Shown piece by piece: positions 15,015-62,005 of a DNA stretch of 64,000 bases. Position numbers and translations under genes: made by a program. Source of the stretch: Pseudodesulfovibrio sp. S3 (GTDB taxonomy: Bacteria; Desulfobacterota; Desulfovibrionia; Desulfovibrionales; Desulfovibrionaceae); NCBI RefSeq assembly GCF_004025585.1, contig NZ_QTZO01000002.1:1-64000 (forward strand), in the 5' to 3' direction. Positions within the stretch are counted from its first letter, which is position 1, and the number at the start of each line of letters is the position of its first letter. The notes beneath the pieces are model-generated. The model worked only from the letters and a program-made list of their open reading frames with translations, did not search any database and was not told the DNA's origin.

Positions 15015-15017
15015 GCC

Positions 15018-16437: not shown

Positions 16438-16451
16438 GATGCAGTTCTCCG

Positions 16452-45591: not shown

Positions 45592-46224
45592 CTAAACAAT
45601 GCAGTATTCGCGGAGGGCATATTTCCTGAGAACTTTCATGCCATTCAGACCAAGTTTTATTTGTATCCTTGAATAGTAAGTTTCCACTGTTCGGACACTC
45701 ACGTCGAATCTCGCTGCGATCTCCGCATTGGTTTCGCCCTTTGCCAGAAGGATCAGAACTTCCCTCTCGCGTTCGCTGAACTGCGGAGGCTCGACCGAGG
45801 TCTCGATCTGGTTCCCTTCCGCCTCAAGGCTCGCCGCCACGCGGGGACTGAGGTAGATTTCACCGCCGAGGACGGTCTGAATCGCTTCCAATAGGACTGT
45901 CGAGCTTTCACATTTGGTGACGAACCCGTGCGCCCCGCGACCAAGGGCGCGTTTCACGACACTGGCGTTGCCATGCATGGAGTAGATAAGCACCGATATA
46001 TCTCTTGAGAGCAGGTCCTGAATACAGTCCAGGCCACTTTCCTGGCCCAGAGAAATATCCACCAAAGCGACGTTCGGGCTGGTGGAATCGAGTACGGTCA
46101 AGAGTTCATCCCGACAGGACACTTCAGCGCAGACCGTGTGCTGGCCCTTTGCGAGCAACAGACCGAGTCCTTCGCGTACGGCCGGATGGTCATCCACAAT
46201 GAGTATGTTGGCGGAAACGCTCAT
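45592..46224 (-). CDS. NarL/LuxR-family response regulator
   Basis: The start at 46224 overlaps the kinase stop (ATGA). The 210-residue product has a receiver domain (ILIVDDHPAVREGLGLLL, phosphorylated Asp in NVALVDISLG) and a LuxR-type DNA-binding domain (FSEREREVLILLAKGETNAEIAARFDVSVRTVETYYSRIQIKLGL). It is the output partner of the co-transcribed sensor kinase. Target genes are not evident; the uptake/radical SAM operon just upstream on the same strand is one possibility. Confidence 0.94.
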   Translation of the reverse strand: MSVSANILIVDDHPAVREGLGLLLAKGQHTVCAEVSCRDELLTVLDSTSPNVALVDISLGQESGLDCIQDLLSRDISVLIYSMHGNASVVKRALGRGAHGFVTKCESSTVLLEAIQTVLGGEIYLSPRVAASLEAEGNQIETSVEPPQFSEREREVLILLAKGETNAEIAARFDVSVRTVETYYSRIQIKLGLNGMKVLRKYALREYCIV

Positions 46225-48287
46225 ATATCGTCCTCTTCGCCTTTTGGACGTGCAGCAGAATGACAAGCAACGGAGCAGACGACCATGGTCCCGCCGCCCT
46301 CGGCTTCGTCCATGTCCACAATCTGCAAGTCGCCACCGATCATCATCGCCCGATGCGCCATGATGTTCATGCCCAATCCCCCTTTGGACTGATCGGCCGC
46401 AGATCGGCCGACACCATCATCACGAACCGCGAGCGTTGCCATGCCGTTTGAAGAGCAATCGAACGAAACCGTAATCCGCTGGGGGTTGGCGTGTTTTACG
46501 GCATTGGAGATAGCTTCCTGGGCGATACGATAGAGCTGCGTCACTTGCATGTTTCGACAGACTTCGCAGGCCCTCTCATCCTGAAATTTCATGGGAATGC
46601 CGCTCGACCGGGAATAACGACGGATCATGTCCTCCAGAGACGGCCCTGCGCTTGCATCACCATGCTCCAGCGGCCAAATGCCACAAGACAGGTCGTATGC
46701 CTGATTCACCAATCCATCCAAAACAGCAGAAAGCTGGCGCAGCTCCTCCTTTCTGCCTTCCGGATTCTGATCCTCTTGCGAGAGCGATGCGCACCGCAGA
46801 CAGGCCCCGGTCAACTGCTGACACAGGCCATCATGGATATCTATGCTGATGCGGCGGCGTTCTTCTTCGCTGAGATTCACGATCTCCCGCTCCAACCTGC
46901 TGCGTTCAGCAATCTCTTCTTCAAGATTGACGTTTCTGATCTCAAGTGCCTCGGAGAGGTGTTCGACGGAGGTAAAAGAATTGGAAAAACGCTGGGCCAA
47001 TGCCATGGCTTGAGACAGAACGAGGGCAAAAAGCCCCAACGGAAGGAGACTCTCCACGTGGGTACTGAAAATGAGATAATAAATATCATGTGTTGAAGTT
47101 ACCCCAAGAACAATAATTCCACAGAGGAGAACCAGCGACCCGCTATACCCTCGACGAAAGCAAACAAACAACAGAATGATAAAGCAAGCAGTAATAAAAA
47201 CAGCCGTTAAAGCAAACAATTGAAGCGCCGTTTGAAAAACGAGACCGGGTAGAAAAAAGACCGTAAGAATGAAAAGAAGACCTCTTACATCAACGATATA
47301 GAGAAGAATTCGACCAAATTCATTCGGAAACAATGACCTGTAAAATCTATACAGTATTGAGGTTGAAATAGCGTAGCAGACAAGGGCAATCTTGCTGAGT
47401 ACCACGAATTGAACATCTTGAAGGTATGACCTGATCAACCAATCTGATGCATCATTTGAGGCAACCAACACAGTCAAAACCATGCAATATAACCCAAAGT
47501 ACAGCGTCGAGAGATCTTTCTTTCTCAAAATATAGAGGATAAAATGGTACAATGCCATGATCAGCATGCAGCCCGAAAACAACAACCCCCAACTTCGTGC
47601 ATCGTTATGGGCTTGTTCCAGAACTCCCTGCTCAGCCAATACGATTGGATTCTGCACCCCACCCCCGGGAAAGAAGTGGTTGGATATCTGCATCACCAGA
47701 TCAATAGGCGCTCCATCGATTGTAATTGGCGACAGGACGATTGAACGATCCGGAGTCTCAGCCTCAACGCTCCGCCCTACGACTCCGCTCGTGGCGACAA
47801 GCGTTCCGTTGGCCCATATGCGGTAGGCGGCCCGAATTGAAAGAAAACGCACCGTCAACTGGCGAACGCCGGGAGCGGGCAGGATGCGCAGCCGGAATGT
47901 TGCTTGCCCTGTGCCGGGCAGGGAGTGGCCGTTTAATTCATACCCTTTCCAATAACCGGGAAAGACCAGATAGCCGCTGCTTGTCTGAACATTGCCCGCC
48001 GCGAAGTCATCGGGAGTCAGCAGTTGATCCCAATAGAACTCCCACTGTCCATCAAGAGCGATCGGGCCATGCCGGACCGGATCCCAGCCGGAAAGATCAA
48101 TTACGCCACGCTCGGCAGTCGGCATGGTCTTTTCACCTTCACGACACCCCCCGATACCACAGATCACTATCGCGATTGTGACGAGCAAAAGTAATCGAAG
48201 AGGTTTGGCAAACAAAAAAGGCCTTACGGCAAACAGGTAATCTTTCAAATTAAAAGAATCCTTAAGATTTATTGACAGTCTGAGCAT
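46221..48287 (-). CDS. Sensor histidine kinase with 7TMR-DISM input and HisKA_3 output
   Basis: I set the start at 48287 (MLRLSINLKD) because the longer frame overlaps the preceding gene. The 688-residue protein has an N-terminal membrane segment or lipoprotein-like region (CGIGGC) and an extracytoplasmic DISM-type beta domain (YWKGYELNGHSLPGTGQATF, RLRILPAPGVRQ). Seven membrane segments follow, then a coiled linker and a HisKA_3 domain with the phospho-His in RRISIDIHDGLCQQL. The ATPase ends with GVGRSAADQSKGGLGMNIMA. DISM domains are thought to bind carbohydrates or other small ligands. It pairs with the overlapping regulator gene. Confidence 0.92.
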   Translation of the reverse strand: MLRLSINLKDSFNLKDYLFAVRPFLFAKPLRLLLLVTIAIVICGIGGCREGEKTMPTAERGVIDLSGWDPVRHGPIALDGQWEFYWDQLLTPDDFAAGNVQTSSGYLVFPGYWKGYELNGHSLPGTGQATFRLRILPAPGVRQLTVRFLSIRAAYRIWANGTLVATSGVVGRSVEAETPDRSIVLSPITIDGAPIDLVMQISNHFFPGGGVQNPIVLAEQGVLEQAHNDARSWGLLFSGCMLIMALYHFILYILRKKDLSTLYFGLYCMVLTVLVASNDASDWLIRSYLQDVQFVVLSKIALVCYAISTSILYRFYRSLFPNEFGRILLYIVDVRGLLFILTVFFLPGLVFQTALQLFALTAVFITACFIILLFVCFRRGYSGSLVLLCGIIVLGVTSTHDIYYLIFSTHVESLLPLGLFALVLSQAMALAQRFSNSFTSVEHLSEALEIRNVNLEEEIAERSRLEREIVNLSEEERRRISIDIHDGLCQQLTGACLRCASLSQEDQNPEGRKEELRQLSAVLDGLVNQAYDLSCGIWPLEHGDASAGPSLEDMIRRYSRSSGIPMKFQDERACEVCRNMQVTQLYRIAQEAISNAVKHANPQRITVSFDCSSNGMATLAVRDDGVGRSAADQSKGGLGMNIMAHRAMMIGGDLQIVDMDEAEGGGTMVVCSVACHSAARPKGEEDDI

Positions 48288-48360
48288 AGGTAAAACAGCC
48301 CTGACAGATAAGTCAATAAAACCCACTTCGCCCACACCGACAGATGAGCCTACGCCACTA

Positions 48361-50196
48361 TCAGATGTGAGAAGAAGATGCCGGCTTGCCCTCTTTCCCC
48401 CACGACCACGCGGTATCCGGTTTGCCAAAAGACCTGTTCACGTCCAGCACATTGAAGGAAGCACCATAAAAGAGCTCATGGAACTCCGTCGCTTCCCTGA
48501 TGATATTAAATGAGCACACTTCCGGGTGTATCTCGTTGGCAATATGCATCAGACCCAGAATCCACTTGGGACCGCCAAAGTCACTGCTTGGAATCGGAGC
48601 CGTATGGATGCGCCTGTCGCGAACAGCATCAATACGAAGATTTTTCTCCACGCATTCATTGTAAAAATCCATTGGGGAGTTGGAAATAAACGCTGAAATG
48701 AACATTATTTCCGGATTCAACTTCTCAAGGATTTCCGGTTCGATACTCATGCCCGGTCGGCCATGTATCTCGATCTCCCGATTGACGCTTGCGCCATTGC
48801 AGATTTCCACCAAATGGTTTTCGAATCGCTCTCCCTTGATACAAAACAGCGGCTTTCCCATGGCATAATACACTCTGGGCCGAGTATCCTGGGCACGGCA
48901 GAGAGATTGAACCAGCGCTGTCTTTTCCTCCAGGTAGGTCGCCAGAATCTCGGCGGAAGTTTCACGGTGCACCAACGAACCGAAGAAACGTATCATTTGT
49001 ATATACTTATCCACCCGCTGTATGTCGTGATGCAGATCCTGCATCTTGCCGTTGCACAGCAGATATTCCCAGACATGCACCACCTCGGCCTTGCTGGCAA
49101 CGCCCATGGTGATCAGGATGGACTCGACGATTTCAAGAGCGCGCGTAAATGGATATCCCCCTTGAAAATCCTTTTCCCTGAAGTCCACGGCATTGACTTC
49201 CCCGCAAATCCCGATGGGTTGCCTGCACGCGGGACATGCGTGATGTTCCGGTTCTTTCATGACGCCGTTTTGCAACCGCGCTCCCATGGGGCCGTAAAAA
49301 TCCCTGGAAAGGGTCGTTTCACCGCAATGCCGGCACACTGTGTTCAACTCTTTTGTCCCCGGAGAATTAAACACATACACATGATTCAACAGGGTACGCA
49401 TCCTTTGGCTGAGTGCTTCCGTTTCCCTGATCAACGGCTCCAGTTCGGGGTCTGCCCCTTCCAACGGAATGAACCGCATCACCTGCAAGGGAATTTCAGG
49501 GGATATGTCGCGGATGATGGAGCACAGTTCCAACAATTCCTCGGCATTGTCCTTCTTATGGATGCAGGCAAGTTCGACGTGGATACCGCCCTTGTGCAGC
49601 ATCTTGATATTTCTCAGGACAGGAGAAAACCCCTTGAGTCCGGCACAGTCATGGTAATTCTGATCGGAAAGTCCTTTAATCCCGATATTGATGAAATCCA
49701 GGACCGGCTGCGTCCTTTCAATGGATTCCCGGGAAAAATACCCGTTCGAGGAGCACCCGACATACAGCCCCTTTGCTTTGGCCAACGTTGCCACGGCAAG
49801 GAATGTTTCAAATGCGGCGAGCGGGTCGTTCATCAGAAAGGCAATACCCTTGCACCCGCACTGGATTGCTTTCTCAACGATCTGCTCGGGCGAATACCGC
49901 TGAAGCGCCTTGCTTTGCGGATTCATTTCCCGAACGATCACCGCAGATATGCATCCGGGGCAATTGAAATTGCAGCCGACGGTGCTGACCTGAAGGAAAC
50001 GCGCCCCGGGGTGAAAGTGGAGCATGGGCATGGTCTCAATCCGGATCGGGCAGACCATGATGTATCTGTTCGGATACAATTCGGAAACAAGGCCGTCCCT
50101 GTTCCCGTAGCGACCGCAACGGCCAATGCCGCCCTCGACAATCGTGCATGCGTTTTCGCAGACATGGCAACGCTGCACAGGAGTATTGCCGCCCAT
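48361..50196 (-). CDS. Radical SAM enzyme fused to a cytosolic BtuF/TroA-like ligand-binding domain
   Basis: The 611-residue protein has three parts. A Cys-rich start (CHVCENACTIVEGGIGRCGRYGN) is like the zinc or cluster site of activase-type radical SAM proteins. The radical SAM core has CX3CX2C in VGCNFNCPGC, residues about 70-290, followed by more Cys pairs (CRHCGE, CPACRQ). A C-terminal 250-residue domain resembles class III periplasmic binding proteins (RVYYAMGKPLF, EPEILEKLNPEIMFISAF, GGPKWILGLMHIANEIHPEV) but has no signal, so it is cytosolic. The start overlaps the methyltransferase stop (TGATG). It closes a transporter operon for a metal complex or cofactor, and I infer that it acts on the imported compound. 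Confidence 0.85.
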   Translation of the reverse strand: MGGNTPVQRCHVCENACTIVEGGIGRCGRYGNRDGLVSELYPNRYIMVCPIRIETMPMLHFHPGARFLQVSTVGCNFNCPGCISAVIVREMNPQSKALQRYSPEQIVEKAIQCGCKGIAFLMNDPLAAFETFLAVATLAKAKGLYVGCSSNGYFSRESIERTQPVLDFINIGIKGLSDQNYHDCAGLKGFSPVLRNIKMLHKGGIHVELACIHKKDNAEELLELCSIIRDISPEIPLQVMRFIPLEGADPELEPLIRETEALSQRMRTLLNHVYVFNSPGTKELNTVCRHCGETTLSRDFYGPMGARLQNGVMKEPEHHACPACRQPIGICGEVNAVDFREKDFQGGYPFTRALEIVESILITMGVASKAEVVHVWEYLLCNGKMQDLHHDIQRVDKYIQMIRFFGSLVHRETSAEILATYLEEKTALVQSLCRAQDTRPRVYYAMGKPLFCIKGERFENHLVEICNGASVNREIEIHGRPGMSIEPEILEKLNPEIMFISAFISNSPMDFYNECVEKNLRIDAVRDRRIHTAPIPSSDFGGPKWILGLMHIANEIHPEVCSFNIIREATEFHELFYGASFNVLDVNRSFGKPDTAWSWGKEGKPASSSHI

Positions 50197-50828
50197 CAGC
50201 CTTTCCCCCCGGACTTACGGATTTCAACCCATGTTCCATAGCTGTCGTCGATGATGTCGTATTCTTTTACGGATGCCTGCCCCAGGGTGTCCGTCAGGAA
50301 ACTGCCCTTCTTCCACCGGGTCCGCTCCTCAAGGACGTCAGGGGCCCAGACCGGGCGCATCCCCTTGACCTCTTCAAGGGTTTGGAGGCGGCTGAAGCCG
50401 CACCCGATCATCGCCTTTCCGCCAGGAGCGAGCACGCGTTGAATCTCTTCAAAGGCGGACACATGGTTTTCCCAAAACGGGATTGACCCTCGGCTGAGAA
50501 TCAGGTCGGCACTCCCGTCGGGCAAGGGCATTTTTTCGACAGGGGCGGAGACGAACCGTATGCGGCCATCGGGAACGCCATGCATGACGCAATTCTCCCT
50601 GGCCAGCTCTATTGCTTCCGGTTCGGCGTCCAACGCGATTATTTCAAGGTCCGTAATCTTCGACAGTTCAATGGAAAGAGCAGCACTTCCTGTTCCAATA
50701 TCAAGACACACCCCTTCAACAATGTCATATTTGCTAACAACCTCCCTGGCCAAAAGCGGGTACATCACGGCAAAACGATGATCCTTTGTATACTTATAAA
50801 AATCTTTTTCATCTTCCGGTATGGACAT
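50196..50828 (-). CDS. Class I SAM-dependent methyltransferase
   Basis: The 210-residue protein has motif I as VCLDIGTGSAALSIELSK, an acidic ribose-binding segment (EIIALDAEPEAIELA), and LILSRGSIPFWEN. The tail resembles small Methyltransf_11/25 proteins. It sits between the transporter ATPase gene (20 bases upstream) and the radical SAM fusion (overlapping stop/start), so it belongs to the same operon. Its substrate is probably the transported molecule or a product of the radical SAM enzyme; this is inference. Confidence 0.88.
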   Translation of the reverse strand: MSIPEDEKDFYKYTKDHRFAVMYPLLAREVVSKYDIVEGVCLDIGTGSAALSIELSKITDLEIIALDAEPEAIELARENCVMHGVPDGRIRFVSAPVEKMPLPDGSADLILSRGSIPFWENHVSAFEEIQRVLAPGGKAMIGCGFSRLQTLEEVKGMRPVWAPDVLEERTRWKKGSFLTDTLGQASVKEYDIIDDSYGTWVEIRKSGGKG

Positions 50829-50848
50829 AGGGAATTCTCCTTTTTGTT

Positions 50849-51721
50849 TTAACAGGATTTGGGCTGACCAGAATCAGTATGGAGAGAAGGGGATGGGCCA
50901 TGCGGAATCTGACCGGCCGCCCTGGGCAATGCGTCGCAAAGCCTTGAATATATCCCTCCAGGAATGCACATCCTGAAATTTTCTGCATACGGCATGACCA
51001 GCACATTTGCGCCGTAAAGTTCATACAGGCTTTCCTGCGTTATGACCTCGTTCGGAAGGCCGTCGGTATACACAACGCCATTCTTGAGCATGATCACATG
51101 ATCGGAGACCCAAAATGCGTGGTCAGGAAAATGCGTGGATTTAATGAACGTATATCCTTCGCTGCACAACTCATGCAGTTGCTCCAACAGCTTGAGCTGA
51201 TTGCCGTAATCAAGCCCATTGAGAGGCTCATCCAGAATGAAGATCCGGGCACCTTGGGCCAGTGCCCTGGCAATCAGGGTCAGCTGTCTCTCCCCGCCGC
51301 TGATCTGCGTATACGATTTGTCTTTCAGGTGCAGAATCCCGGTCTTTTCCATGGCGCTGACAGCCACGTTCTCGTCTTCCTCGGAAAATAGACTGAAAAA
51401 ACTCTTGTGAGGCATACGCCCCATCATGACCACGTCCTTGACCGGATAGGCGAAAGAGGCCGTGTGCACCTGGGGAACGTAGGCGACCTGTTTGGCGAGG
51501 CTCTTTCTGCCGATGCAGCCGATATCCACACCATTCAGAAAAATCTGCCCTGTTTTCGGCATGAGAATACCGAGGAGAACCTTGAGCAGCGTTGTCTTGC
51601 CGCACCCGTTGGGCCCAAGAACGGAAACCAATTCACCCTTGGCGATGCTGAAGGAAACATCGTCCAGAATGGGGGTATCCGCATAGGAAAAACCGATATT
51701 ATTCGCGCGGAGCAATGGCAT
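50849..51721 (-). CDS. FecE/BtuD-type ABC transporter ATPase
   Basis: The 290-residue protein has Walker A (GPNGCGKTTLLKVLLG), signature (ISGGERQLTLIARALAQG), Walker B (ARIFILDEPLNGLDYGN) and a switch His in FIKSTHFPDHAF. It belongs to the iron-siderophore/cobalamin import group. It begins directly after the permease stop with no gap (TAG then ATG). The C-terminal extension of about 40 residues is Ser/Pro-rich and not recognised. Confidence 0.94.
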   Translation of the reverse strand: MPLLRANNIGFSYADTPILDDVSFSIAKGELVSVLGPNGCGKTTLLKVLLGILMPKTGQIFLNGVDIGCIGRKSLAKQVAYVPQVHTASFAYPVKDVVMMGRMPHKSFFSLFSEEDENVAVSAMEKTGILHLKDKSYTQISGGERQLTLIARALAQGARIFILDEPLNGLDYGNQLKLLEQLHELCSEGYTFIKSTHFPDHAFWVSDHVIMLKNGVVYTDGLPNEVITQESLYELYGANVLVMPYAENFRMCIPGGIYSRLCDALPRAAGQIPHGPSPSLHTDSGQPKSC

Positions 51722-52789
51722 CTATTTCCACCCCTGTTTTGCATTTTTCATGATTATCGAAAAAAACGGAATCCCGACAAGTGACGTGATGATGCCCAAC
51801 GGTATTTCCACATCCAGCAGGAGGCGGGAGATATCATCCACGAGTACGAGATATATGGCCCCGACAAGGGCTGTCGTCGGAAGCAGGATGCAGTTGTTGG
51901 GACCGACAAGCATTCTGCCGATATGCGGTATCACAAGCCCGACCCAGCCGATCAATCCCCCCATCGCAACGGTGAGCGCACTGATCACTGTCGCGAAAAC
52001 GATGAGGCACAAACGGATCACCTTCACATTGATTCCAAGGGTCTTTGCTTCCTCATCCCCCATGCTGAGCGCGTTGAGGTACCGGGACATGCCGAGAATG
52101 CACCCTATCCCGATGAGAATCGGAAGGGCTGTGCCGGCAACGGTTTCCGTATCGACCAGGGAAAGACCGCCCATGAGCCAATACACGATCGCCGGCAGTT
52201 GGTCCGTGGGGTCCGCCGTGTATTTGACGATCGACAGCAATGAGGTGAACAGGGATCCGCTTATGATCCCACCGAGAATGAGCATCATCAGCTTGTCGCC
52301 GTTATACATTTTGGCCAGGGACATCGCCAGGCCCACAGCCAGGATTCCTCCGGTAAAACTCAGCAGTTGGACTTCAAACCAGGAGTTGCCTATCAGCAAT
52401 CCGAGCGCGGCGCCGAACGAGGCTCCGGGCAGGACCCCAAGAATTCCGGGCGCGACCAGCGGGTTGACGAACATGGACTGAAAAGCCGCCCCGGAAATGG
52501 AAAGTGCGGCCCCGATCAGGGCGGCGGCGATCAGTCGCGGGGCGCGGATATCGAACAGGACATTCCTCACCAGATCGTACCCGTCATCATGGGTACCCCC
52601 GGTCGGGAACACCCCCTGTTGGACAACGAACCATAGCTCTCTCAAGGAAATGGGATATTTTCCCAACGTCAAGGACACCGCCAGACACAAGAGCAGGAGA
52701 AATCCCAAGGCCAGGAGCAGAAAGGACCGATTTCCCCAGCCCTCGAAGAGATACTTTCTTGTCCGGGCAAAAGGACGGAGCTGTTTCAT
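51722..52789 (-). CDS. FecCD/BtuC-family ABC permease
   Basis: The 355-residue protein has about ten membrane helices and FecCD landmarks: LRAP-like DIRAPRLIAAALIGAALSISG, then NPLVAPGILGVLPGASFGA, GGLIGWVGLVIPHIGRMLVG and LLDVEIPLGIITSLVGIPFF. It would work as a homodimer in the inner membrane. It overlaps the binding-protein gene by four bases and abuts the ATPase gene. The family imports iron-siderophores, heme, cobalamin and, in MolBCA-type systems, molybdate or tungstate; substrate is undetermined. Confidence 0.95.
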   Translation of the reverse strand: MKQLRPFARTRKYLFEGWGNRSFLLLALGFLLLLCLAVSLTLGKYPISLRELWFVVQQGVFPTGGTHDDGYDLVRNVLFDIRAPRLIAAALIGAALSISGAAFQSMFVNPLVAPGILGVLPGASFGAALGLLIGNSWFEVQLLSFTGGILAVGLAMSLAKMYNGDKLMMLILGGIISGSLFTSLLSIVKYTADPTDQLPAIVYWLMGGLSLVDTETVAGTALPILIGIGCILGMSRYLNALSMGDEEAKTLGINVKVIRLCLIVFATVISALTVAMGGLIGWVGLVIPHIGRMLVGPNNCILLPTTALVGAIYLVLVDDISRLLLDVEIPLGIITSLVGIPFFSIIMKNAKQGWK

Positions 52790-53832
52790 CTTGCACTGCT
52801 CATGAGCTGCTCGGCGTCTTCGGACGAAATGTCCTTTTGCAAAAACAAATGGAAGAATTCACGGCATTCATGCTGCATGTCCCAATCAAAAAGATCCGGA
52901 TACATAATATTGGCGACCCACTTCAGCCCCAATATGCGCATGAAGGACGGAGGACGGTCGAACCAGTTGAACGGCTTATTCGGAATGAGGTAGACGCGAT
53001 GATTCTTGACTGCCGGGATGCTTTTCCACCCTGCGGACGAATAAATCTGCGCATAGAAAGAGGCCTGTTCGACAAAGATGACCTCCGGCTGATACGCGAT
53101 AACCGTTTCCATGTTCACCCTCTCTTTCCCATACCGTGTCACCACGCCTTCGCCGTGCACATTGATCCCACCGGCCAGGGGAATGAGTTCCGCATGGATC
53201 GACGTGCTGCCTTCGGTGCGAAGGCCGTCGTTTCCCTCCGCGTAATAAACCTTCACCCTTTTCTGAGGAGAAATTAAGGCCGTTTTTTCAGCCACCTGAG
53301 AAAAGACTGCCCGTGTATAATCGGCGAGCGCCCTACCCCTTGCCTCCCTGCCGAGGATCCCCCCCAAGGCTTCGAATGCATCCGGGTATTGATACAACTG
53401 ATCGATGACAATGTTGGCAATCGGAATATTGAATTTCCCAAGAAACGCTTCAAATTTATGGCTCAACGGACTGGAATTCCTCCCGACAACAATATCCGGG
53501 TTCAATGCGACAAGCTTCTCCAGATTAGGGGTTTTCCCCTGGCCGAAATAACCGCCGATAACAGGAAGATCCAGCGTATGCGCGTCAATATACTTGTCAC
53601 AGCCTTTCAATGGGAAATTCAACCCGGCAAGAAGCGTCGGATCAATGGCATATACCAGCATGGTTTCCGGCGGTGACGCGGCATACACTGTTTTTACCGC
53701 ATCAGGGACCGAGACGACACGTCCGGTCATGTCCGTAATATCTCTGGCGAATGCAACCCCTGAAAAAACGAAGACAGAAACACAGACCATCACTGCCAAT
53801 AGCATTTGCTTTTTCAATGTATAACTGGACAC
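52786..53832 (-). CDS. Periplasmic binding protein, FecB/BtuF class
   Basis: A GTG at 53832 gives MSSYTLKKQM and a signal peptide ending VAFARD; the frame also extends to 53910. The 348-residue protein has the class III pattern: ITDMTGRVVSVPDAVKTVYA, LEKLVALNPDIVVGRNS, IAYQPEVIFVEQASFYA, and IPNKPFNWFDRPPSFMRILG. The last motif marks a subgroup that, as I recall, includes CeuE- and MolA-like proteins binding metal chelates or oxyanions. It is the first gene of the five-gene operon. The mature protein lacks a lipobox. Confidence 0.92.
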   Translation of the reverse strand: MSSYTLKKQMLLAVMVCVSVFVFSGVAFARDITDMTGRVVSVPDAVKTVYAASPPETMLVYAIDPTLLAGLNFPLKGCDKYIDAHTLDLPVIGGYFGQGKTPNLEKLVALNPDIVVGRNSSPLSHKFEAFLGKFNIPIANIVIDQLYQYPDAFEALGGILGREARGRALADYTRAVFSQVAEKTALISPQKRVKVYYAEGNDGLRTEGSTSIHAELIPLAGGINVHGEGVVTRYGKERVNMETVIAYQPEVIFVEQASFYAQIYSSAGWKSIPAVKNHRVYLIPNKPFNWFDRPPSFMRILGLKWVANIMYPDLFDWDMQHECREFFHLFLQKDISSEDAEQLMSSAR

Positions 53833-53931
53833 GGCCTTCTCTTTGTTAAACGTGAGTTCTATTTTTCGATCAATATCTCCAAATTTATGTAAGTATTTTT
53901 CGTAAATCATGATCCACGCCCTGCCAATCCC

Positions 53932-54022
53932 GTCACGGGTTTAATTGTTATCGTGACAGGTGGCGGAACCTCGCAAACAGTTGTCGGGCACCGCGACCAT
54001 GGGCCACAGAAGCGAGGCCGCC
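53932..54022 (-). promoter_or_regulatory. Structured 5' leader of the uptake operon
   Basis: Two nested structures precede the operon. A long-range stem pairs 53962-53974 (GGCGG, AA bulge, CCTCGC) with 54012-54022 (GCGAGGCCGCC), enclosing about 37 bases that could fold further. Nearer the gene is a hairpin GTCACG (53932-53937) with CGTGAC (53952-53957). The layout of aptamer-like domain then hairpin is riboswitch-like, but I cannot assign it to a known class. Confidence 0.35.
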
Positions 54023-54669: not shown

Positions 54670-55113
<444 letters not shown>

Positions 55114-55285
55114 CTACCTCGCAAGTTTATACGTTGCCATTTGATGGTGCGGAAACCGCACGATCCAAGACGCAAACCGCCCTCTGACGAAGGAGGCCTG
55201 CTATCTACAGCGTGGCATAATGATCGCTGACATTTGCATACTCTGTCTGATCTTGTATTTATACGTCATTTTGATTCCCATGCTT

Positions 55286-55332
55286 ACTGGTGGCCCTCCA
55301 ATCCAGAGGCGGTCAATCAGGGAGGTCCACCA
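55286..55332. repeat. Long imperfect hairpin between DUF4198 gene and flavodoxin
   Basis: CTGGTGGCCCTCC (55286-55298) pairs with GGAGGTCCACCAG (55320-55332), 12 of 13 positions. It lies just after the stop of the DUF4198 gene and may terminate its transcript. There is no T run. Confidence 0.5.
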
Positions 55333-55347
55333 GAAACCTAAGCTGCA

Positions 55348-56202
55348 TCACTGGTGTTCCGCCACAGTCGGCTTACGCTCATTGGGAACCAGCACGACCA
55401 GGGTTGCGGTCTGCTTGAGTTGCAAATACGCATCCTTTTTGTCCGGGACCGCGTCGGTCTTGATATAGTACCGTATAAACCACCTTCCCGGCTGATCCAG
55501 GGAAACCCTGATCGTGTCGCCGGAGACTTCGGCACCGGGATGGTAAAGGTCCTCGGCCTCGGTGGAATACCCACCGTACGTGGCATCCCAATGCCCTGCT
55601 CCGAAATACCGCTTGCCGCCCTTGAAGACCTTCAAGACAAGCGTGTCACCGGGTTTCAACGTGGTAGGATCCTGCACAGGGACCAGTTCCAGAGGCAAGC
55701 CCACATGGGCCTGATATTTGCCGTCAGGCTCCCCGCAACGGACGTACGACTTCGCATATTGCTTGCTGTAAAGGGATTTGACGATTTCGGAAGCCTGATC
55801 CCTGACCTCGCTCATGGGTTTGATGGAGTTCCGGTCACGGCCTTTCTTGTCCACCCACTTGGTGTAGAAGCCGGGATTGGTTTCGGCAGTCAACACATAG
55901 GTGCCGTTTGTCCCGTACTCCACCATGTGAGATTGCAGGCAGGTTTCATCACGAGGCGCAATTTCAGTCACCTTGCCGGTGGGATCATACACCCTGATGA
56001 AAGCGAGTTTGTTGAAACGCACCCCATCGTCCACCGGGAAATGATGCCCGTATGCAAAGAAAAGCGGGGTCTTTTTGCCTTCGCTCACCCGAAAGCGACC
56101 CGATTGGATGTACAACGAATGAGCCGAAGCAATTTCTCCACCGAGAAACAACGTCAGCGCAAGCACGAGGCATACAGCAACAACTTTTTCCATATAACGC
56201 AT
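55348..56202 (-). CDS. DUF4198 periplasmic protein
   Basis: The start at 56202 follows AGAGGA. The 284-residue product has a signal peptide (VAVCLVLALTLFLGGEIASA) that ends just before HSLYIQSG, leaving a His near the mature N-terminus, a common feature of DUF4198 proteins. A beta-rich domain follows with a carboxypeptidase-regulatory-like end (PGDTLVLKVFKGGKRYFGAG, then GRWFIRYYI). Members are often found beside nickel, cobalt or iron transporters. The gene lies 11 bases after the FeoB-associated peptide gene. Its role is presumed to be metal handling in the periplasm. Confidence 0.85.
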   Translation of the reverse strand: MRYMEKVVAVCLVLALTLFLGGEIASAHSLYIQSGRFRVSEGKKTPLFFAYGHHFPVDDGVRFNKLAFIRVYDPTGKVTEIAPRDETCLQSHMVEYGTNGTYVLTAETNPGFYTKWVDKKGRDRNSIKPMSEVRDQASEIVKSLYSKQYAKSYVRCGEPDGKYQAHVGLPLELVPVQDPTTLKPGDTLVLKVFKGGKRYFGAGHWDATYGGYSTEAEDLYHPGAEVSGDTIRVSLDQPGRWFIRYYIKTDAVPDKKDAYLQLKQTATLVVLVPNERKPTVAEHQ

Positions 56203-56213
56203 GTTTTTCCTCT

Positions 56214-56369
56214 CTATTTTTTGTCGGAACAATCGGCCCCCCGGCCGCAGGAATCAGAGGTGCAACCGGAACAACCGCAGCCCTCTTTTGCCTGAAACTG
56301 TTTACGGATTTTTGTAAAAACATAATATCCTGCGAAAATGATAATAACGACGGCAAGAACGGTACCCAT
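56214..56369 (-). CDS. FeoB-associated Cys-rich membrane peptide
   Basis: This 51-residue gene starts after a GGAGG site: one membrane helix (VLAVVIIIFAGYYVF), a basic stretch (KIRKQFQAKEG), then a Cys-rich tail with CGCSGC, CGRGADC. That is the exact plan of the FeoB-associated Cys-rich family (Pfam FeoB_associated). It lies between the binding-protein gene and the DUF4198 gene, about 6 kb from feoB. It may bind Fe(II) at the cytoplasmic face. Confidence 0.88.
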   Translation of the reverse strand: MGTVLAVVIIIFAGYYVFTKIRKQFQAKEGCGCSGCTSDSCGRGADCSDKK

Positions 56370-56382
56370 AAAAACCTCCGAC

Positions 56383-57288
56383 TCAGTCTTTCAAGGCTGC
56401 AACCAGCCTGGAAAGGTTCCCGTCGAACCACTCGACAAGTGCTGTAAGCGCATCTTCCTCCTCCCCACGGACAAACCGCTTGAGGACCACCGGAGTCGCT
56501 CCACCGTCCCTCAAAGCCTCCAGCCCTCTGACCCCGGGCTCCCAGGAGCAGATCACGGCCCTGACCCCGGCCTTTTTGATTTGAACGGCCAATTGCCGCG
56601 CATCGCCGTCGGTCCACTGCTCCTCGGGCTTGAGCATATGGAAAGCGACATTCAAACCGTATTCGTCAGCCAGACAGGTATATCCACTGGTCAGGGCCGC
56701 CAGTTCCACAAAATCAAGCTCCATGAAAAGACCTTCGTATCTGCTCCGCAGTTTGAACAATTCGGTTTGCAACACCTTGAGATTTCCCCTGACCACGTCT
56801 GCATCCGAGGGCACCAATCGGCAGAGATCGTCGGCGGCAATGGCCGCCATGCGGGTGAGGTTTGCCGGGCTTCTCCAGACATACGGAGAGAATTCTCCTT
56901 CCACTTCCACCATCGGCACACCGGCGCCATAGCCGTCCAAGGACTGGGTGACATCAATGTTGACCACATGGATATTGCCGCGACGCGCCCATTGATAGAG
57001 CGGGTCGGCAGTCCAGGCCGATCCTACGGACAGGACCGCATCCGCCTTGGCAGCAATTTCAAAAAACGCCGTGCGGTGCTTTTTCAGATACGCTTTCTGT
57101 CCCTGCATGGAATAGCCGTCGGGGATGACATCCTTCACGGTCATGGACGTCCCCCTGGTCAGGACCTCCCCCATGGCCTGAATCACATCAAGGGAAGTCA
57201 GAACAACCACTTCCTTTTGGGCCATTGCAGGGGAAACGGCTGTAACAAGGAAAAACAGGACAGTGGCAAAGCCCAGTCGCTTCATCAT
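56383..57288 (-). CDS. ZnuA-like (cluster A-I) binding protein lacking the usual His ligands
   Basis: The 301-residue protein has a signal peptide (FATVLFFLVTAVSPAMAQ) and the two-lobe zinc/manganese binding-protein fold. Where relatives have DPHVWLDP it reads SPYVWRSPANLTRMAAIAAD, and where they have a conserved His before YLA..YGL it reads TSGYTCLADEYGLNV. Thus at least two of the three or four metal-binding His are missing. It overlaps the permease gene by four bases, so it belongs to the same transporter operon, which also encodes a normal binding protein. Confidence 0.85.
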   Translation of the reverse strand: MMKRLGFATVLFFLVTAVSPAMAQKEVVVLTSLDVIQAMGEVLTRGTSMTVKDVIPDGYSMQGQKAYLKKHRTAFFEIAAKADAVLSVGSAWTADPLYQWARRGNIHVVNIDVTQSLDGYGAGVPMVEVEGEFSPYVWRSPANLTRMAAIAADDLCRLVPSDADVVRGNLKVLQTELFKLRSRYEGLFMELDFVELAALTSGYTCLADEYGLNVAFHMLKPEEQWTDGDARQLAVQIKKAGVRAVICSWEPGVRGLEALRDGGATPVVLKRFVRGEEEDALTALVEWFDGNLSRLVAALKD

Positions 57289-58190
57289 GCGGCAGCCTCC
57301 CGGAAAGAACCTGAAAACGTGCGCAACCCAGCTGTTATGACAAAAATGCCCGAGGCGACCAGAATAATGGCCCCTCCCGACGGCACTGGAATCTCGAACT
57401 GCATGGGCACGATGATGCCGAGAAGGCAGCTCACGGTGGCAAAGATCACGCTGTAAAAAAAGAATCCCCTGACGGACCGGCTCACATTGCGTGCAGATGC
57501 CGCCGGAATGATGAGCAGGGCCTCCACCAGCACGGCACCCACGATCTTGAGGCAGGCCACGGTAACGACCGTGATCATGAGCACGAACACGTAGTCGTAA
57601 AATTTGGCGTTGATCCCGCGTACCTGGGCAAGACTCGGATTCAAGCTCGCCAACAGCATGTGATTGTACGTGGGGATACCCACAACGGTGCAGAGCACCC
57701 CGATAAGGAGCAGCACGTTCATGTCCGTATCATTCACCGTAAGAATCGAACCGAACAGAATGTTGTCCAGCACATGCATGTTCACCTTGGCCGTCACATA
57801 TAGAAGCACGCACGCCCCCACGGCCAGGGAGATGGAAAGGAAGACTCCGATTACGGTGTCCTGCTTCATGCGCGTGCGATTTCGGGTATAATTCATGGTC
57901 AGGGCAAACAGGATGCAAAAACCGAAAAGAGAGGCATACGGAGCCGTCACAGGCTCGCCGAGCATGACGCCCAAAGCCACGCCGGTAAGGGCAGCCTGCC
58001 CAACGGCCTGTGAAAAAAAGGCCAGCCGCTTGGAGATCACCATGGTGCCTATACCGCCGAGGAGCGGACCGGCCACCACAGCGCACAGCAAGGCATTGAC
58101 CACGAATGCATACTGAAAGGAATTCGGGAGGTTGCCTGCCCTGCCCAGCTCCATGACATGAAGGCGAACATAATCATAAATAAATCCCAT
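57285..58190 (-). CDS. ABC-3 family metal permease (ZnuB/MntB type)
   Basis: The start at 58190 (MGFIYDYVRLHVM) is preferred over an upstream TTG because it lies just after the ATPase stop. The 301-residue protein has eight or nine membrane segments. ABC-3 landmarks are LLGGIGTMVISKRLAFFSQAVG near the start and NILFGSILTVNDTDMNVLL, PTYNHMLLASLNPSLAQVRG and ALLIIPAASARNVSRSVRGF later. It is the membrane channel for the zinc/manganese/iron-type importer encoded here. Confidence 0.94.
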   Translation of the reverse strand: MGFIYDYVRLHVMELGRAGNLPNSFQYAFVVNALLCAVVAGPLLGGIGTMVISKRLAFFSQAVGQAALTGVALGVMLGEPVTAPYASLFGFCILFALTMNYTRNRTRMKQDTVIGVFLSISLAVGACVLLYVTAKVNMHVLDNILFGSILTVNDTDMNVLLLIGVLCTVVGIPTYNHMLLASLNPSLAQVRGINAKFYDYVFVLMITVVTVACLKIVGAVLVEALLIIPAASARNVSRSVRGFFFYSVIFATVSCLLGIIVPMQFEIPVPSGGAIILVASGIFVITAGLRTFSGSFREAAA

Positions 58191-58194
58191 AGAG

Positions 58195-58926
58195 TTATGC
58201 CGCCTTGACCGAAGTGGAAAAGATATCAAGGAGGCGCTCCGGGGTCAGCTCGACTCCAGGGTCTCCGGAAAAAAGCACCTCACGATTGATGCAGGTGACA
58301 CTCTGGGCCATGTATTTCACCATGGCGAGGTCATGATGAACGACGACAACGGTCGTTCCAGAGGCCGACAACTCCTTGAGAAGATGATGCATAATTGATG
58401 ATCCTGATCTGTCCAGCCCGGTTACAGGTTCATCAAGCACAAGAAGCTTCGGCTCCGGCATCAAGGCCTGAGCCAACAGCACGCGTTGACGCTCGCCGCC
58501 CGACAAGGCGCCGAAGGGCCTGTCCATCTTATCCGCCATCCCCACCACATCCAGCACCCGGCGAATGTCCGACCTGACTTGACTCTTGATACCGAAAAAG
58601 ACAGGGCACCTCCCTTGACGGACCATGCCCATGAAATCAAGAACGGTCATGGGCAGCGTGTCGTCAAAATCCAGGGATTGCGGCACGTATCCCACAGCCC
58701 CTTTTCTGTCCCAGCAAATACGAATGGTGCCTGAGTGTGGCATCTGCCCAAGCATGCACCGGACAAGTGAAGTCTTGCCCCCCCCATTGGGTCCGATGAT
58801 GCCGTGGATGGAACCCTGATTCACGGTAAAATTCACCCCGTGCAAAATGGAATTCCCGCCAAGCTCCAGGCCGACATTCTCAAAATGAATTCGCGGACCG
58901 CGATCCGCATTCATCACTCCCGTCAT
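58195..58926 (-). CDS. Metal ABC transporter ATPase (ZnuC/MntA type)
   Basis: The start at 58926 (MTGVMNADRGPRIH) lies one base after the binding-protein stop. The 243-residue protein has Walker A (GPNGGGKTSLVRCMLG), signature (ALSGGERQRVLLAQALMP), Walker B (PKLLVLDEPVTGLDRSG) and a switch His (VVVVHHDLAMV). The unusual C-terminus (CINREVLFSGDPGVELTPERL) is typical of the metal-chelate ABC group. Operon position between binding protein and permease fits. Confidence 0.94.
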   Translation of the reverse strand: MTGVMNADRGPRIHFENVGLELGGNSILHGVNFTVNQGSIHGIIGPNGGGKTSLVRCMLGQMPHSGTIRICWDRKGAVGYVPQSLDFDDTLPMTVLDFMGMVRQGRCPVFFGIKSQVRSDIRRVLDVVGMADKMDRPFGALSGGERQRVLLAQALMPEPKLLVLDEPVTGLDRSGSSIMHHLLKELSASGTTVVVVHHDLAMVKYMAQSVTCINREVLFSGDPGVELTPERLLDIFSTSVKAA

Positions 58927-58927
58927 A

Positions 58928-59839
58928 TCACCTTCCCTGTTCTCCGGGACGGACATCCACCAGGGCACTGGTCAAGGCGTCGAGATTGGCGCGCAGTCCC
59001 TTTTCAAATCCATCCGTACTGTATTCTCCGTTGGTCAAGTGAGAGAGATGACGGATGCGGATGCCGGTCTCCTCATGAATGGTGTCCACGTATTTATCGG
59101 GAAAAGCCATCTCCGTGAAAATGACTTCCACCCCAAGATTTTTAATTTCATCAATAACATTGGCGAGTTGACTTGCTGTCGGCCTGAGGCCATGCCCGGG
59201 TTCGATGACTGCCGTGACCTGCAGGCCAAAATCCTGGAACAGGTAGTCATAGCCGCCGTGGATAGTGGCGCACCGAAAATCCATCAAAGGCAAATCGGCG
59301 ATACGTTCCATGTACTCGGCCTTCATGCCGCGAAGCTTCCCGGCGTATGCGCGGGCATTTTTACGATAAATTTCGGCATGTTTCGGAAACAACACTCCAA
59401 GCTCCTTGGCAATGGTATAAATTTGACGGACCGAAGCCGTGACCGAAACAAAGGTATGCGGGTTGACGACCTTCTTGCCGTCCAGACGACCGGATACGGG
59501 AATAAGCGAAACATCCTTGTTGGCGAAAACAAACGGCAGCTTGTCCTGCATACCTGCGGCTTCCACGATCTCGAAGGCGAACTCGTCGTGCCCGATGCCA
59601 TTGACCACCAGTGCGTCCAGGGTCATGCACTTCTTTATATCTTCAGGTTGCGGACGGTAGCTATGCGGATTGAACCCTTCTCCGATAAGAGGAACAACTT
59701 CTGCGGTATCGCCCACAATGGACGACACGAAACTATAGTAAGGGTGAAGCGTTATGCCGATACGCGGCTTGCCTGCCGCATGCCCTGCTCCTGCAAGGAG
59801 ACAGGCGAACAAAAGACCCAACAAGAATCGGTTGATCAT
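58928..59839 (-). CDS. ZnuA/MntC-type metal-binding protein
   Basis: The 303-residue protein has a signal peptide (FLLGLLFACLLAGAGHAAG) and the cluster A-I fold. Candidate metal ligands are present: His in GFNPHSYRPQPED, in VVNPHTFVSVTASV, in CATIHGGYDYLF, and an acidic residue in VIFTEMAFPDKYVDTI. There is no His-rich loop as in many zinc-specific ZnuA proteins. It starts in overlap with the DUF6162-like gene (TAATG). With ATPase and permease it forms a complete importer for zinc, manganese or iron. Confidence 0.92.
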   Translation of the reverse strand: MINRFLLGLLFACLLAGAGHAAGKPRIGITLHPYYSFVSSIVGDTAEVVPLIGEGFNPHSYRPQPEDIKKCMTLDALVVNGIGHDEFAFEIVEAAGMQDKLPFVFANKDVSLIPVSGRLDGKKVVNPHTFVSVTASVRQIYTIAKELGVLFPKHAEIYRKNARAYAGKLRGMKAEYMERIADLPLMDFRCATIHGGYDYLFQDFGLQVTAVIEPGHGLRPTASQLANVIDEIKNLGVEVIFTEMAFPDKYVDTIHEETGIRIRHLSHLTNGEYSTDGFEKGLRANLDALTSALVDVRPGEQGR

Positions 59840-60489
59840 TAAAGGCGCTCTTCATTTTTGGTATGTTTCATTTCATCCTCTCCCTTGCGGGCCACCACTT
59901 CTCGCCACCCCTTGTTGATGAGTGCCTGGTCCGAGATCATGGTGGGAATTTTCTCTACCGGAGAGGCGTGGAGCCAGATTTCGTACGGGGCGTGAGCGGC
60001 CTCATCCTCATGATCATGCTCATGAAGCATAACCAGCAAGAAAGAACAGGACTCTCCCGAATCCTGCGGATGCCCCACGTACAAGGCCACATGCTCATCC
60101 TGCGTGGCAATGACGCTCCGGGTCCAGCCAAACGCACCATTTTTTATCCAGGCTGCGTCATGGACAAAGGGCGGGACATGCCAGCTTGCCAATGCATCCA
60201 CCGTGGGCCAACCCCCGTCATCTTCATGATACATTTGAATTTCGGGAGCCGCCGTGTAGAGGCCATTGAAAATGGCCAATTCCTCTGCCCGAAGCTCCTT
60301 GAACGCATCAACCTGCCAAGCCGGGACCACCCTGGCAGAGGCAGTGGTATTCCGCAGGACAATGGCAACACTGCACATGATCACGGTCACAAGCGCCGCC
60401 GCAAACACCATCCATGTCTCCTGTCCTGTCCCGGATGGACAAACCACAACCTCGCAGCGCGTTGTCCGTTTTCTTATGCCCATTTTCAT
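59839..60489 (-). CDS. DUF6162-like membrane-anchored protein
   Basis: The start at 60489 (MKMGIRKRTTRCE) is preceded by AGGGAAG. The 216-residue protein has one N-terminal membrane segment (TWMVFAAALVTVIMCSVAIVL) and an extracytoplasmic part with a His/acid cluster LHEHDHEDEAAH and the segment DDGGWPTVDALASWHVPPF. I recognise it from metal-transport gene clusters, where it is annotated DUF6162. It is the first gene of the Znu-type operon, so a role in delivering or buffering metal for the binding proteins is plausible. Confidence 0.75.
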   Translation of the reverse strand: MKMGIRKRTTRCEVVVCPSGTGQETWMVFAAALVTVIMCSVAIVLRNTTASARVVPAWQVDAFKELRAEELAIFNGLYTAAPEIQMYHEDDGGWPTVDALASWHVPPFVHDAAWIKNGAFGWTRSVIATQDEHVALYVGHPQDSGESCSFLLVMLHEHDHEDEAAHAPYEIWLHASPVEKIPTMISDQALINKGWREVVARKGEDEMKHTKNEERL

Positions 60490-60677
60490 ACGACTTCCCT
60501 GTTCTGATACGTGAACCCAACAACTTCCGGACACAATCCCTGACGGCTGCACATGCCCCCGAGACAAAGAGGACTTGCGACATGACCGGGGCATGAAGGA
60601 AGGCCGCTTGCCAGGCGAAGCCCACACCCTCCACCCAATTCATACTCAAATACATCGAATCCACTCGTAAACAGATC

Positions 60678-60713
60678 GGTGCGGCGGACACAGAGGGAAA
60701 TGCCCGCCGCACC
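60678..60713 (-). terminator. Hairpin after the second DUF4198 gene
   Basis: GGTGCGGCGG / CCGCCGCACC pair perfectly around a 16-base loop, 50 bases after the stop at 60763. It separates the feoB segment from the Znu operon. The T content after it is modest. No gene is seen in the 60490-60762 gap. Confidence 0.6.
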
Positions 60714-60762
60714 CCTTAAGGCGCTCGCCACTATTGATGAACGAGCATGGGGAGGCTGTTGT

Positions 60763-61593
60763 CTACTTCATGTCCTCGGCCTTGACCCAAATGACGGCGT
60801 CCTGGCCGAGTTCCTTGCCCTTGTGTTCCTTTTCAGGACCGATACCGAGAGCGGCAAAACCCCACCAGCCTGCCTTGGGAATGCCGAAGGTGATGTAGCC
60901 GTTGACATCGGTGAAGATGGTCTGGGTAACAAAGGCGTCATGAGGGTACTCCACGGAAGACTTCTCAGGCATGGAATTGGTGCTCAGGTCGGGCATGTGG
61001 CTCATGTATTCCACTTCCACCTCGGCACCGGCAACAGGCTTGCCTTCGGACAAAACCTGGGCCTTGAAGACGTTGCCGGTCCAAAGGCCATAGGGCTTGA
61101 TCAGGGGAACTATTTCGCACGGCAGGCCCACGGGGTCGGCCCAGTTGCCCGGAATGCCGCCCACATTGATGATCAGCTTGGTAATCTGCTGCATATACAG
61201 GCCTTCTTCTTTCTCGAAATAATAGCCGGGCTTCATGACGAAAACGTAGTCCCCCATGGAACGGACTTCCTTCTTGGGGATGACGGCCGAATAGGCCTTA
61301 TTGGAAGACCCGGGATTTTTCCAGGTGATCTCCTTGACGTATTGCATCAAGTCCACCTTCTTGGCCTCGGCGTCACCACGCTGTTTCAGGACATAGAACT
61401 CCTCGATACCACCCATATCCATGGTATGCCCGGCCTCGGCAGGATGGGTGAACACCATGCGCATATCCAGGTCCTTCCCCTCCTCAAGGGCGATCTCGGG
61501 GGTATACACGACCATGAAATGGGCGAACGCGGAACTGACGACCGTCAGAAGACAAATGGCGGCCAAAAGGGGAATAAATCGTTTTTTCATCAA
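60763..61593 (-). CDS. DUF4198 periplasmic protein, paralogue
   Basis: The 276-residue protein starts after GAGGAG and has a signal peptide (FIPLLAAICLLTVVSSAFA) cleaved before HFMVVYTPE, again leaving His at the mature N-terminus. The rest is beta-rich (GIEEFYVLKQRGDAEAKK, GYYFEKEEGLYMQQ, GADVNGYITFGIPKAG-like end), matching DUF4198. It lies downstream of feoB and the small secreted protein on the same strand. It shares only the overall plan with the DUF4198 protein at 55348. Periplasmic metal binding is presumed. Confidence 0.82.
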   Translation of the reverse strand: MMKKRFIPLLAAICLLTVVSSAFAHFMVVYTPEIALEEGKDLDMRMVFTHPAEAGHTMDMGGIEEFYVLKQRGDAEAKKVDLMQYVKEITWKNPGSSNKAYSAVIPKKEVRSMGDYVFVMKPGYYFEKEEGLYMQQITKLIINVGGIPGNWADPVGLPCEIVPLIKPYGLWTGNVFKAQVLSEGKPVAGAEVEVEYMSHMPDLSTNSMPEKSSVEYPHDAFVTQTIFTDVNGYITFGIPKAGWWGFAALGIGPEKEHKGKELGQDAVIWVKAEDMK

Positions 61594-61607
61594 GAACTCC
61601 TCAAGTA

Positions 61608-61630
61608 TTGAGATTGAATTTTATTCTCAA
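61608..61630. promoter_or_regulatory. Inverted repeat ahead of the DUF4198 gene
   Basis: TTGAGATT (61608-61615) and ATTCTCAA (61623-61630) form an inverted repeat with seven of eight positions paired and a seven-base AT-rich centre, directly upstream of the ribosome site. Size and context would suit a Fur-type site, but the match to a Fur consensus is only partial. Confidence 0.35.
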
Positions 61631-61684
61631 ATTCTACGCGTGAAAGGACGCAGGGCGGACACATCGTCGCCCTGCGCAATTTCC

Positions 61685-62002: not shown

Positions 62003-62005
62003 TAG

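Follow-up and report, generated by a model that had tools for sequence, protein, structure and literature searches.

What does a radical S-adenosylmethionine (SAM) enzyme do at the end of an uptake operon when it carries part of a binding protein at its own C-terminus? The question is raised by five minus-strand genes in a 64,000-nucleotide stretch of Pseudodesulfovibrio sp. S3, hereafter the window (contig NZ_QTZO01000002.1; C2:1-64000 of genome G000, 3.68 Mb). They encode a FecBCD-type importer, a methyltransferase (MT), and a radical SAM protein fused to half of a binding protein, which we call FUS. The fusion is real and conserved, and seems to be a new protein architecture in a known kind of system. 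On balance, and with somewhat better than even confidence, we read the operon as a molybdenum/tungsten (Mo/W) acquisition module and FUS as an intracellular dechelating enzyme for the imported metal complex.

The Operon and Its Radical SAM Protein

The operon encodes an exported class III binding protein (52786..53910, minus strand as are all five; PF01497, 70.2 bits) with a hydrophobic leader recognized by eye, for which a start at 53832 is more likely than one at 53910; a FecCD-type permease (51722..52789; PF01032, 263.8 bits); the importer ATPase (50849..51721; PF00005, 109.9 bits); a class I SAM-dependent methyltransferase of 210 aa (50196..50828; PF08241, 72 bits); and FUS, of 611 aa (48361..50196; PF04055, 64 bits). 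Counted from FUS, the genes are spaced by -1, 20, 0, and -4 bases. A sequence-only reading of this DNA had described five minus-strand genes joined by overlaps or tiny gaps, and the open reading frames (ORFs) lie where it placed them and carry the expected Pfam and NCBIfam domains. The MT belongs to a subfamily in which 24 aligned sequences have the motif SRGSxxFW in common. An Rfam scan found no RNA family in the window.

The nearest radical SAM family is AmmeMemoRadiSam: TIGR04337 (AmmeMemoSam_rS) matches FUS residues 9-328 (49213..50172) over nearly the whole model, with 118.9 bits against a cut-off of 220. FUS differs from that family in falling below its cut-off and in adding half a binding protein. 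The claim that no pathway with this layout has been described agrees with the lack of any NCBIfam model above cut-off among the 15 that match FUS. We found no description of the fusion in the literature searched (titles and abstract openings, with subscription papers mostly outside coverage), which is no proof of absence.

The CxxxCxxC motif of FUS lies at C75, C79, and C82, and further cysteines form an N-terminal group (C10, C13, C17, C27) and two pairs (C288/C291 and C321/C324). All are invariant among the 36 members of the FUS alignment, which is also the basis of the family profile and of the AlphaFold2 (AF2) model, with the exception of C324, which is kept in 90% or more. Structure searches matched residues 38-275 to the pyruvate formate-lyase activating enzyme (PFL-AE; 3c8f, Z 19.2) and residues 52-284 to NifB (6y1x, Z 16.6). 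Since the protein opens with this cysteine-rich part, with conserved cysteines of iron-sulfur type and no export leader by eye, we take FUS to be cytosolic. The genome also encodes a separate homolog of the radical SAM part (C7:72627, 31% identical).

Half of a Binding Protein

The C-terminal 250 residues had been taken for a second BtuF/TroA-type binding domain. Homology to class III binding proteins holds up, and what FUS carries is half of such a protein rather than a second complete domain. The window FUS itself stays below the PF01497 threshold (E<=0.01), which 30 of the 36 aligned members pass, and the family profile reaches the solved binding proteins 4ovk (1.5e-18), 4pag (3.1e-18), and MolA (3psa, 7.8e-8), as expected from the proposed similarity. 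In single-sequence phmmer searches, binding proteins of known structure match FUS 367-586, with 4ovk at 2.1e-7 over 398-586, and the operon's own binding protein matches the C-terminal part at 2.5e-7.

The matching segment, FUS 400-584 (48445..48999), is the connecting helix plus C-lobe, and aligns to residues 145-345 of binding proteins of about 364 aa (medians of 134 domain hits). In the AF2 model built from the 36 sequences (mean predicted local distance difference test 88.2; predicted template-modeling score 0.88), the place of the N-lobe, FUS 345-399 (49000..49164), holds helices only by DSSP. The model has helices at 347-363, 369-381, 385-391, and 395-408 and a long one at 412-434, followed by an alpha/beta C-lobe, and between 308 and 441 no strand reaches a length of three residues. 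Because only helix and C-lobe align and the model lacks strands of that length over 308-441, the C-terminal part is, as modeled, a half binding protein that lacks the N-lobe sheet. Structure alignments cover FUS from about 353 to 584 (4hn9, Z 21.0, 220 aligned of 316; MolA, Z 17.7). In terms of what defines a class III binding protein, FUS has the homology, does not have the two lobes, and shows no export signal by eye.

The closest structures, 4pag, 4ovk, and 4hn9, are whole binding proteins, whereas FUS keeps one lobe and keeps it, judging from the missing leader, in the cytosol. Strongly conserved loops in the half binding protein (G447-K448, R457/E459/N460, and D539-F540-G541) probably face the ligand, and the radical SAM barrel may replace the missing lobe at the ligand face. 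In FUS, a lobe of a periplasmic binding protein has been re-used as an enzyme domain.

Distribution and Gene Neighborhoods

Full-length homologs of FUS were collected from 6 of 60 relatives (G028, G033, G002, G014, G022, and G051) and from 35 loci of named genomes, and the 36 aligned members share 45-75% identity with the window protein. Carriers include Desulfovibrio, Geobacter, Desulfuromonas, Sulfurospirillum, Desulfosporosinus, Pelotomaculum, Sporomusa, Acetobacterium, Clostridium, Syntrophomonas, and Treponema. The family profile matched 8 of 395 genomes in an even sample of the window's phylum, 6 of 398 and 5 of 299 in the phyla of two Bacillota-type relatives (four genomes common to both), 3 of 200 in the phylum of Sulfurospirillum, and 4 of 73 in the order of a Desulfosporosinus; these figures are rough, as the center genome is counted among the matches and scoring was mostly limited to the top few candidates of each genome. 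By these counts the family is rare and patchy in anaerobes, yet well conserved.

The expectation that the five genes would occur together in related genomes was confirmed. All four partners lie on the same strand as FUS at 28 of 51 loci (26 of the 36 longer than 15 kb), and a same-strand methyltransferase at 45 of 51, directly upstream (within 60 bases) at 30. In the most frequent arrangement, the importer genes are accompanied by MT and FUS alone. In a permease tree, 16 FUS-linked permeases and one control form a single clade (support 1.0), and the remaining permeases of FUS loci are largely mixed with controls. Recurrence and domain content together bear out the proposal of an importer coupled to a methyltransferase and to a cytosolic radical SAM protein with a binding-protein-derived domain.

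A Putative Operator Shared with Mo/W Transport Genes

Upstream of the operon, at 53932..53957, lies the palindrome GTCACG-N14-CGTGAC, a putative operator. All five aligned upstream regions from the genus carry RTCACG-N14-CGTGAC and then TTGGCA or a close variant of it. We searched six genus genomes for RTCACG-N14-CGTGAY beside a control pattern and found 33 sites against 2 (4 against 0 in G000), with the palindrome preceding the FUS unit in all six. In G014 it precedes an MT-FUS pair with no importer in the surrounding 14 kb.

The four sites in G000 show what company the operon keeps. Besides the one upstream of FUS (C2:53932), a site at C6:12925 lies between an operon of modA-like, modB, and DUF364 genes (modA 93.3 bits, cut-off 62.5) and the gene for a regulator that combines two TOBE/Mop domains with a phage-integrase domain; one at C8:108726 is 92 bp upstream of another modA ORF (188 bits), which is followed by an ATPase; and one at C7:57243 is 64 bp upstream of an ORF for a PF13557 outer-membrane protein. 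Outside G000, 17 further sites, beyond those at FUS units, were read and 7 were left unread. Eleven of the 17 are at modA/modB, TOBE regulator, or molybdopterin oxidoreductase operons or genes, one is at a TonB receptor, two are at ssuABC-like operons, and three had no gene assigned by ORF picking. These placements support a common operator for the FUS operon and the genome's Mo/W transport genes. The regulator with TOBE and phage-integrase domains is presumably TunR, which has a role in Desulfovibrio; no paper on it turned up in the literature searched.

Other members of this putative regulon bear on the operon's parts. The PF13557 protein behind the palindrome (L191:7134-8327 in G000) has a counterpart of the same Pfam family adjoining the FUS operon in G033 (L025:15912-16952), a protein with a similar start is found in G002 too, and such outer-membrane proteins are a candidate channel for the substrate. 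In four genus genomes, ssuABC-like operons at or near the palindrome encode a second fusion, of an ssuB-like ABC ATPase and an entire class III binding-protein domain that is not exported separately (L193:8860-10857, L198:3160-5007, L205:3156-4991, and L207:8256-10859); cytosolic-side binding-protein domains thus occur twice here. Two opposite copies in G002 (L197, L201) have the palindrome between genes for a TauE-like transporter (by eye) and the TOBE/integrase regulator.

Mo/W Marker Genes and Riboswitches

Mo/W marker genes were found at 18 of 41 FUS loci and at 6 of 38 FecCD control loci (p 0.008), or, with DUF364/FmdE included, at 25 of 41 and 11 of 38 (p 0.006). Because the markers had been picked after these first 41 loci were viewed, the comparison was repeated on 10 new FUS loci and 20 new controls, giving 4 of 10 against 1 of 20 (p 0.031) and 7 of 10 against 3 of 20 (p 0.005). 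The methyltransferase is enriched in both sets (35 of 41 against 11 of 38, p 3e-7; 10 of 10 against 6 of 20, p 3e-4). The loci are related rather than independent, so all p values given in this study are too small. Left out of the comparisons were L030 (on the contig of L027), controls L075 and L096 (which contain FUS), L139 and L140 (FUS identical to that of L052 and L045), and L150 (96% identical to L058).

Nitrogenase-like genes were considered as general partners of FUS and rejected; at 1 of 41 FUS loci against 3 of 38 controls, they are a local feature only. At L042 of Desulfosporosinus fructosivorans, the stretch from 4209 to 7915, between MT and FUS, encodes a NifD/NifK-like pair that stays below the cut-offs together with a NifH (396.3 bits, cut-off 394.35). 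Downstream, at 12679-17849, lie the gene for the alpha chain of an Fe-only nitrogenase (ANFD, 1078.8 bits, cut-off 873.8) and nitrogenase-like neighbors.

All 51 FUS loci were scanned for Mo/W riboswitches (RF01055/RF01713) and for the cobalamin riboswitch. Nine carry a Mo/W riboswitch (L033, L036, L039, L046, L051, L054, L146, L147, and L149). On the same strand, it precedes TonB-MT-FUS in L051, DUF364-TonB-MT-FUS in L054, and an HmdB-like radical SAM gene and FUS in L039, and in L036 a Moco-II riboswitch likewise precedes an ORF that is followed by TonB, binding protein, permease, ATPase, FmdE, MT, and FUS. RF01055 is present in 28 of 52 FUS genomes; in at least 9 of these it is no more than 10 kb away from FUS, where 1.18 would be expected at random positions (P 8e-7; G061, G065, G069, G072, G074, G846, G712, G610, and, at 9.3 kb, G491). 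Together these counts support a tie between FUS relatives and Mo/W genes and riboswitches.

A similar association has been noted in Pelobacter carbinolicus, where TonB channels lie near molybdopterin-responsive riboswitches and novel porphyrins were suggested as possible ligands (PMC3543383); the available portion of that paper makes no mention of a radical SAM - binding protein fusion.

Substrate of the Importer

Among solved structures, the family profile of the operon's binding protein finds 4pag, a direct relative from Sulfurospirillum deleyianum, first (435 bits, 1.6e-129), then 4ovk (163 bits), and third the molybdate-binding MolA (3psa, 131.8 bits, 2.4e-37), ahead of YiuA (106.9), IsdE (77.5), and the best BtuF (60.6 bits). 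By sequence it resembles MolA more than BtuF. The half binding protein in turn scores higher against 52 binding proteins of FUS loci (median 68.2 bits) than against 71 of control loci (31.8; p 6e-9), which favors recognition of the same ligand by both. We consider molybdenum/tungsten very probable as the substrate class. The range first proposed, of metal chelates, corrinoids, heme, or oxyanions, is narrowed accordingly, with corrinoids and heme disfavored.

The nearest characterized importer is MolABC of Haemophilus influenzae, which has the same combination of FecCD-type permease, ATPase, and class III binding protein. HI1470-HI1472 are listed as molABC, with modA and modD in the same cluster, and a low affinity of about 100 uM is quoted (PMC3928620); the cluster as listed there has no radical SAM fusion and no methyltransferase, unlike the FUS operon. 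Control by molybdate or tungstate of the MolABC type is suggested here by sequence signs only, all of which point that way for this operon, namely the operator shared with modA operons and the TOBE regulator, and the riboswitches at some relatives.

Several observations weigh against this assignment, besides the choice of markers after viewing the first loci and the relatedness of the loci. Twenty-three of the first 41 FUS loci have no Mo/W marker, 42 of 51 have no Mo riboswitch, and RF01055 is absent from the window genome and 23 others of the 52. At least 9 of 58 control FecCD loci carry RF01055, about as many as the FUS loci that carry RF01055 or RF01713 (9 of 51; Fisher p 0.80), and two of the riboswitch-bearing control loci share a contig with a FUS cluster. 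The idea that a Mo/W riboswitch singles out FUS was therefore rejected, since other FecCD loci in these genomes have it equally often; it marks a wider FecBCD set that includes FUS operons. Neither FmdE (6 of 41 against 7 of 38; new loci 0 of 10 against 3 of 20) nor TonB receptors (12 of 41 against 5 of 38, p 0.10; new loci 6 of 10 against 7 of 20) are significantly enriched over controls, and both were dropped as FUS signatures. The scores of YiuA and of other iron binders come near that of MolA. Foldseek and VIA match iron, nickel, heme, and molybdate binding proteins alike, so that the fold does not tell the ligand. Finally, the window contains, upstream of the operon, genes for flavodoxin (54670-55110), a ZnuA-type transporter, and FeoB-like proteins, which would suit iron.

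Function of the Fusion Protein

Anaerobes in sulfidic settings need molybdenum or tungsten for formate dehydrogenase, aldehyde oxidoreductase, and nitrogenase, and free molybdate is scarce there. We envisage that a Mo or W complex, either an organic chelate or a thiometallate, would cross the outer membrane of diderms through a TonB receptor or a porin. The exported binding protein would capture it, and import by the FecCD/ATPase pair is likely. In the cytosol, in outline as the sequence-only reading had suggested, FUS may receive the complex in the cleft between half binding protein and radical SAM barrel, where radical chemistry, helped by the methyltransferase, would open or alter the organic ligand and free the metal for cofactor synthesis. 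Organic chemistry would be superfluous for free molybdate, which points to an organic carrier or a thiometallate instead. ChuW and HutW, cytosolic radical SAM enzymes of anaerobic heme degradation, act on an imported metal complex; the idea is similar in FUS, but a different metal is indicated. No HemN/HutW-type name appears among the 15 NCBIfam matches of FUS.

A more specific form of this account is tentative, and we hold it with less than even confidence: FUS would be a dechelating enzyme not yet described, in which the barrel replaces the lobe and an organic Mo/W carrier, a molybdophore or a scavenged cofactor, is clamped between the halves and dismantled. If true, sulfate reducers, Geobacter relatives, Sulfurospirillum, acetogens, and syntrophs would have an economy based on Mo/W metallophores or on cofactor salvage. 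FUS and its Mo/W control elements offer a handle on how anaerobes obtain these metals, with the fusion, the operon, and a candidate regulator named and the metal predicted.

The main rival turns the chemistry around. FUS and MT would make or tailor an organic Mo/W ligand (molybdophore-like, or part of a cofactor), the half binding protein would hold the product or metal, and the importer would return the loaded ligand. The best case for it is Desulfosporosinus BRH_c37 (L105-L107, G061:C60), where the FUS cluster exceeds 40 kb and looks biosynthetic, with some genes assigned by eye. It holds HmdB/HcgA-like radical SAM proteins (TIGR03957 140.5, 118.2, and 90.3 bits, cut-off 320.9; CX5CX2C), a nitrogenase-component-1-like pair, O-methyltransferase-like proteins, DUF4213/DUF364, FmdE, modD, and two modABC-like sets. 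Nearly all of the cluster is on one strand; it also includes FUS, a 333-aa copy of FUS with the radical SAM part only, and four FecCD permeases, and five of the seven RF01055 of that genome are on this contig.

It also speaks for the rival that MT-FUS can occur without an importer. The pair of this kind in G014 adjoins a MATE-type efflux gene (L027:10792-12204), and two more such genes lie near FUS in L048 (3461-4819 and 6406-7803); these MATE-type genes, which may export a ligand, were noticed by eye only, with no systematic exporter search. Against synthesis, the commonest units hold too little for a de novo pathway, with only MT and FUS beside the importer, and a binding-protein-derived domain would more naturally recognize an imported form. 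Sequence cannot separate ligand release from ligand synthesis, which tells against our preference; we nonetheless regard metal release through ligand alteration as most likely, and ligand synthesis, its main rival, as unlikely though well worth keeping in view.

Uptake of an iron-siderophore or another metal under low-metal conditions, with the Mo link secondary, would account for the flavodoxin, ZnuA-type, and FeoB-like genes upstream and for YiuA among the binding protein's structural relatives. The six other loci first read have no relatives of the window's flavodoxin, DUF4198, and ZnuA genes, and no Fur-like box was found in the five aligned upstream regions, where the best candidate has 7 mismatches in 19 against the Fur consensus; iron/Fur control was set aside on this ground. 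With the Mo/W regulon evidence added, we find this reading improbable.

We give equally little credence to FUS as a protein-modifying enzyme, akin to the activases of glycyl radical enzymes, with the half binding protein as a docking domain. PFL-AE is among the closest structures; no glycyl radical enzyme was recognized by eye in the neighborhoods read, where no model search was made, and the strongly conserved loops of the binding-protein-derived part argue for a ligand.

Import of a corrinoid or heme, followed by radical SAM processing of the tetrapyrrole as in anaerobic heme breakdown or cobamide remodeling, is a typical use of FecBCD/BtuCDF-type importers, and the best equivalog matches of permease and ATPase are BtuC and a corrinoid ATPase, but both fall below cut-off (BtuC 181.7 against 461 and 174.5 against 334 bits; BtuF 30.8 against 234), the binding protein profile scores MolA above IsdE and BtuF, the operator in its own genome is shared with Mo genes, and the cobalamin riboswitch, a usual though not universal control of BtuCDF importers, was found at 1 of 51 FUS loci (none in the window) against 9 of 51 for the Mo/W riboswitch, so that we rejected it as the leading substrate and hold it the least probable of all. 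That one locus, L144, has the riboswitch (8622-8808) just 3' of FUS and before cobalamin-synthesis-like genes (by eye); it is the sole FUS locus pointing to cobamides, and its FUS frame is interrupted by TAG.

Neighboring Genes

Upstream of the operon, the region 54670-63964 of the window is a metal-supply neighborhood, perhaps for iron, zinc, or manganese. It encodes flavodoxin, a pair of DUF4198 proteins, two ZnuA-like proteins together with the permease (ABC-3) and ATPase of their transporter, DUF6162, and a FeoB-type permease. Directly downstream, on the strand of FUS, a histidine kinase (7TMR-DISM) and a LuxR-type response regulator (45592-48428) follow, without relatives in the six other FUS loci first read. 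In Sulfurospirillum, a gene for a bacterial-type globin (PF01152, 75 bits; L058:6305-6871) separates that of a ModE-type regulator from that of the binding protein. A similar globin was seen by eye in L060 (5534-6109), and ExbB/ExbD/TonB-like genes, also recognized by eye, are divergent at the FUS loci of this genus.

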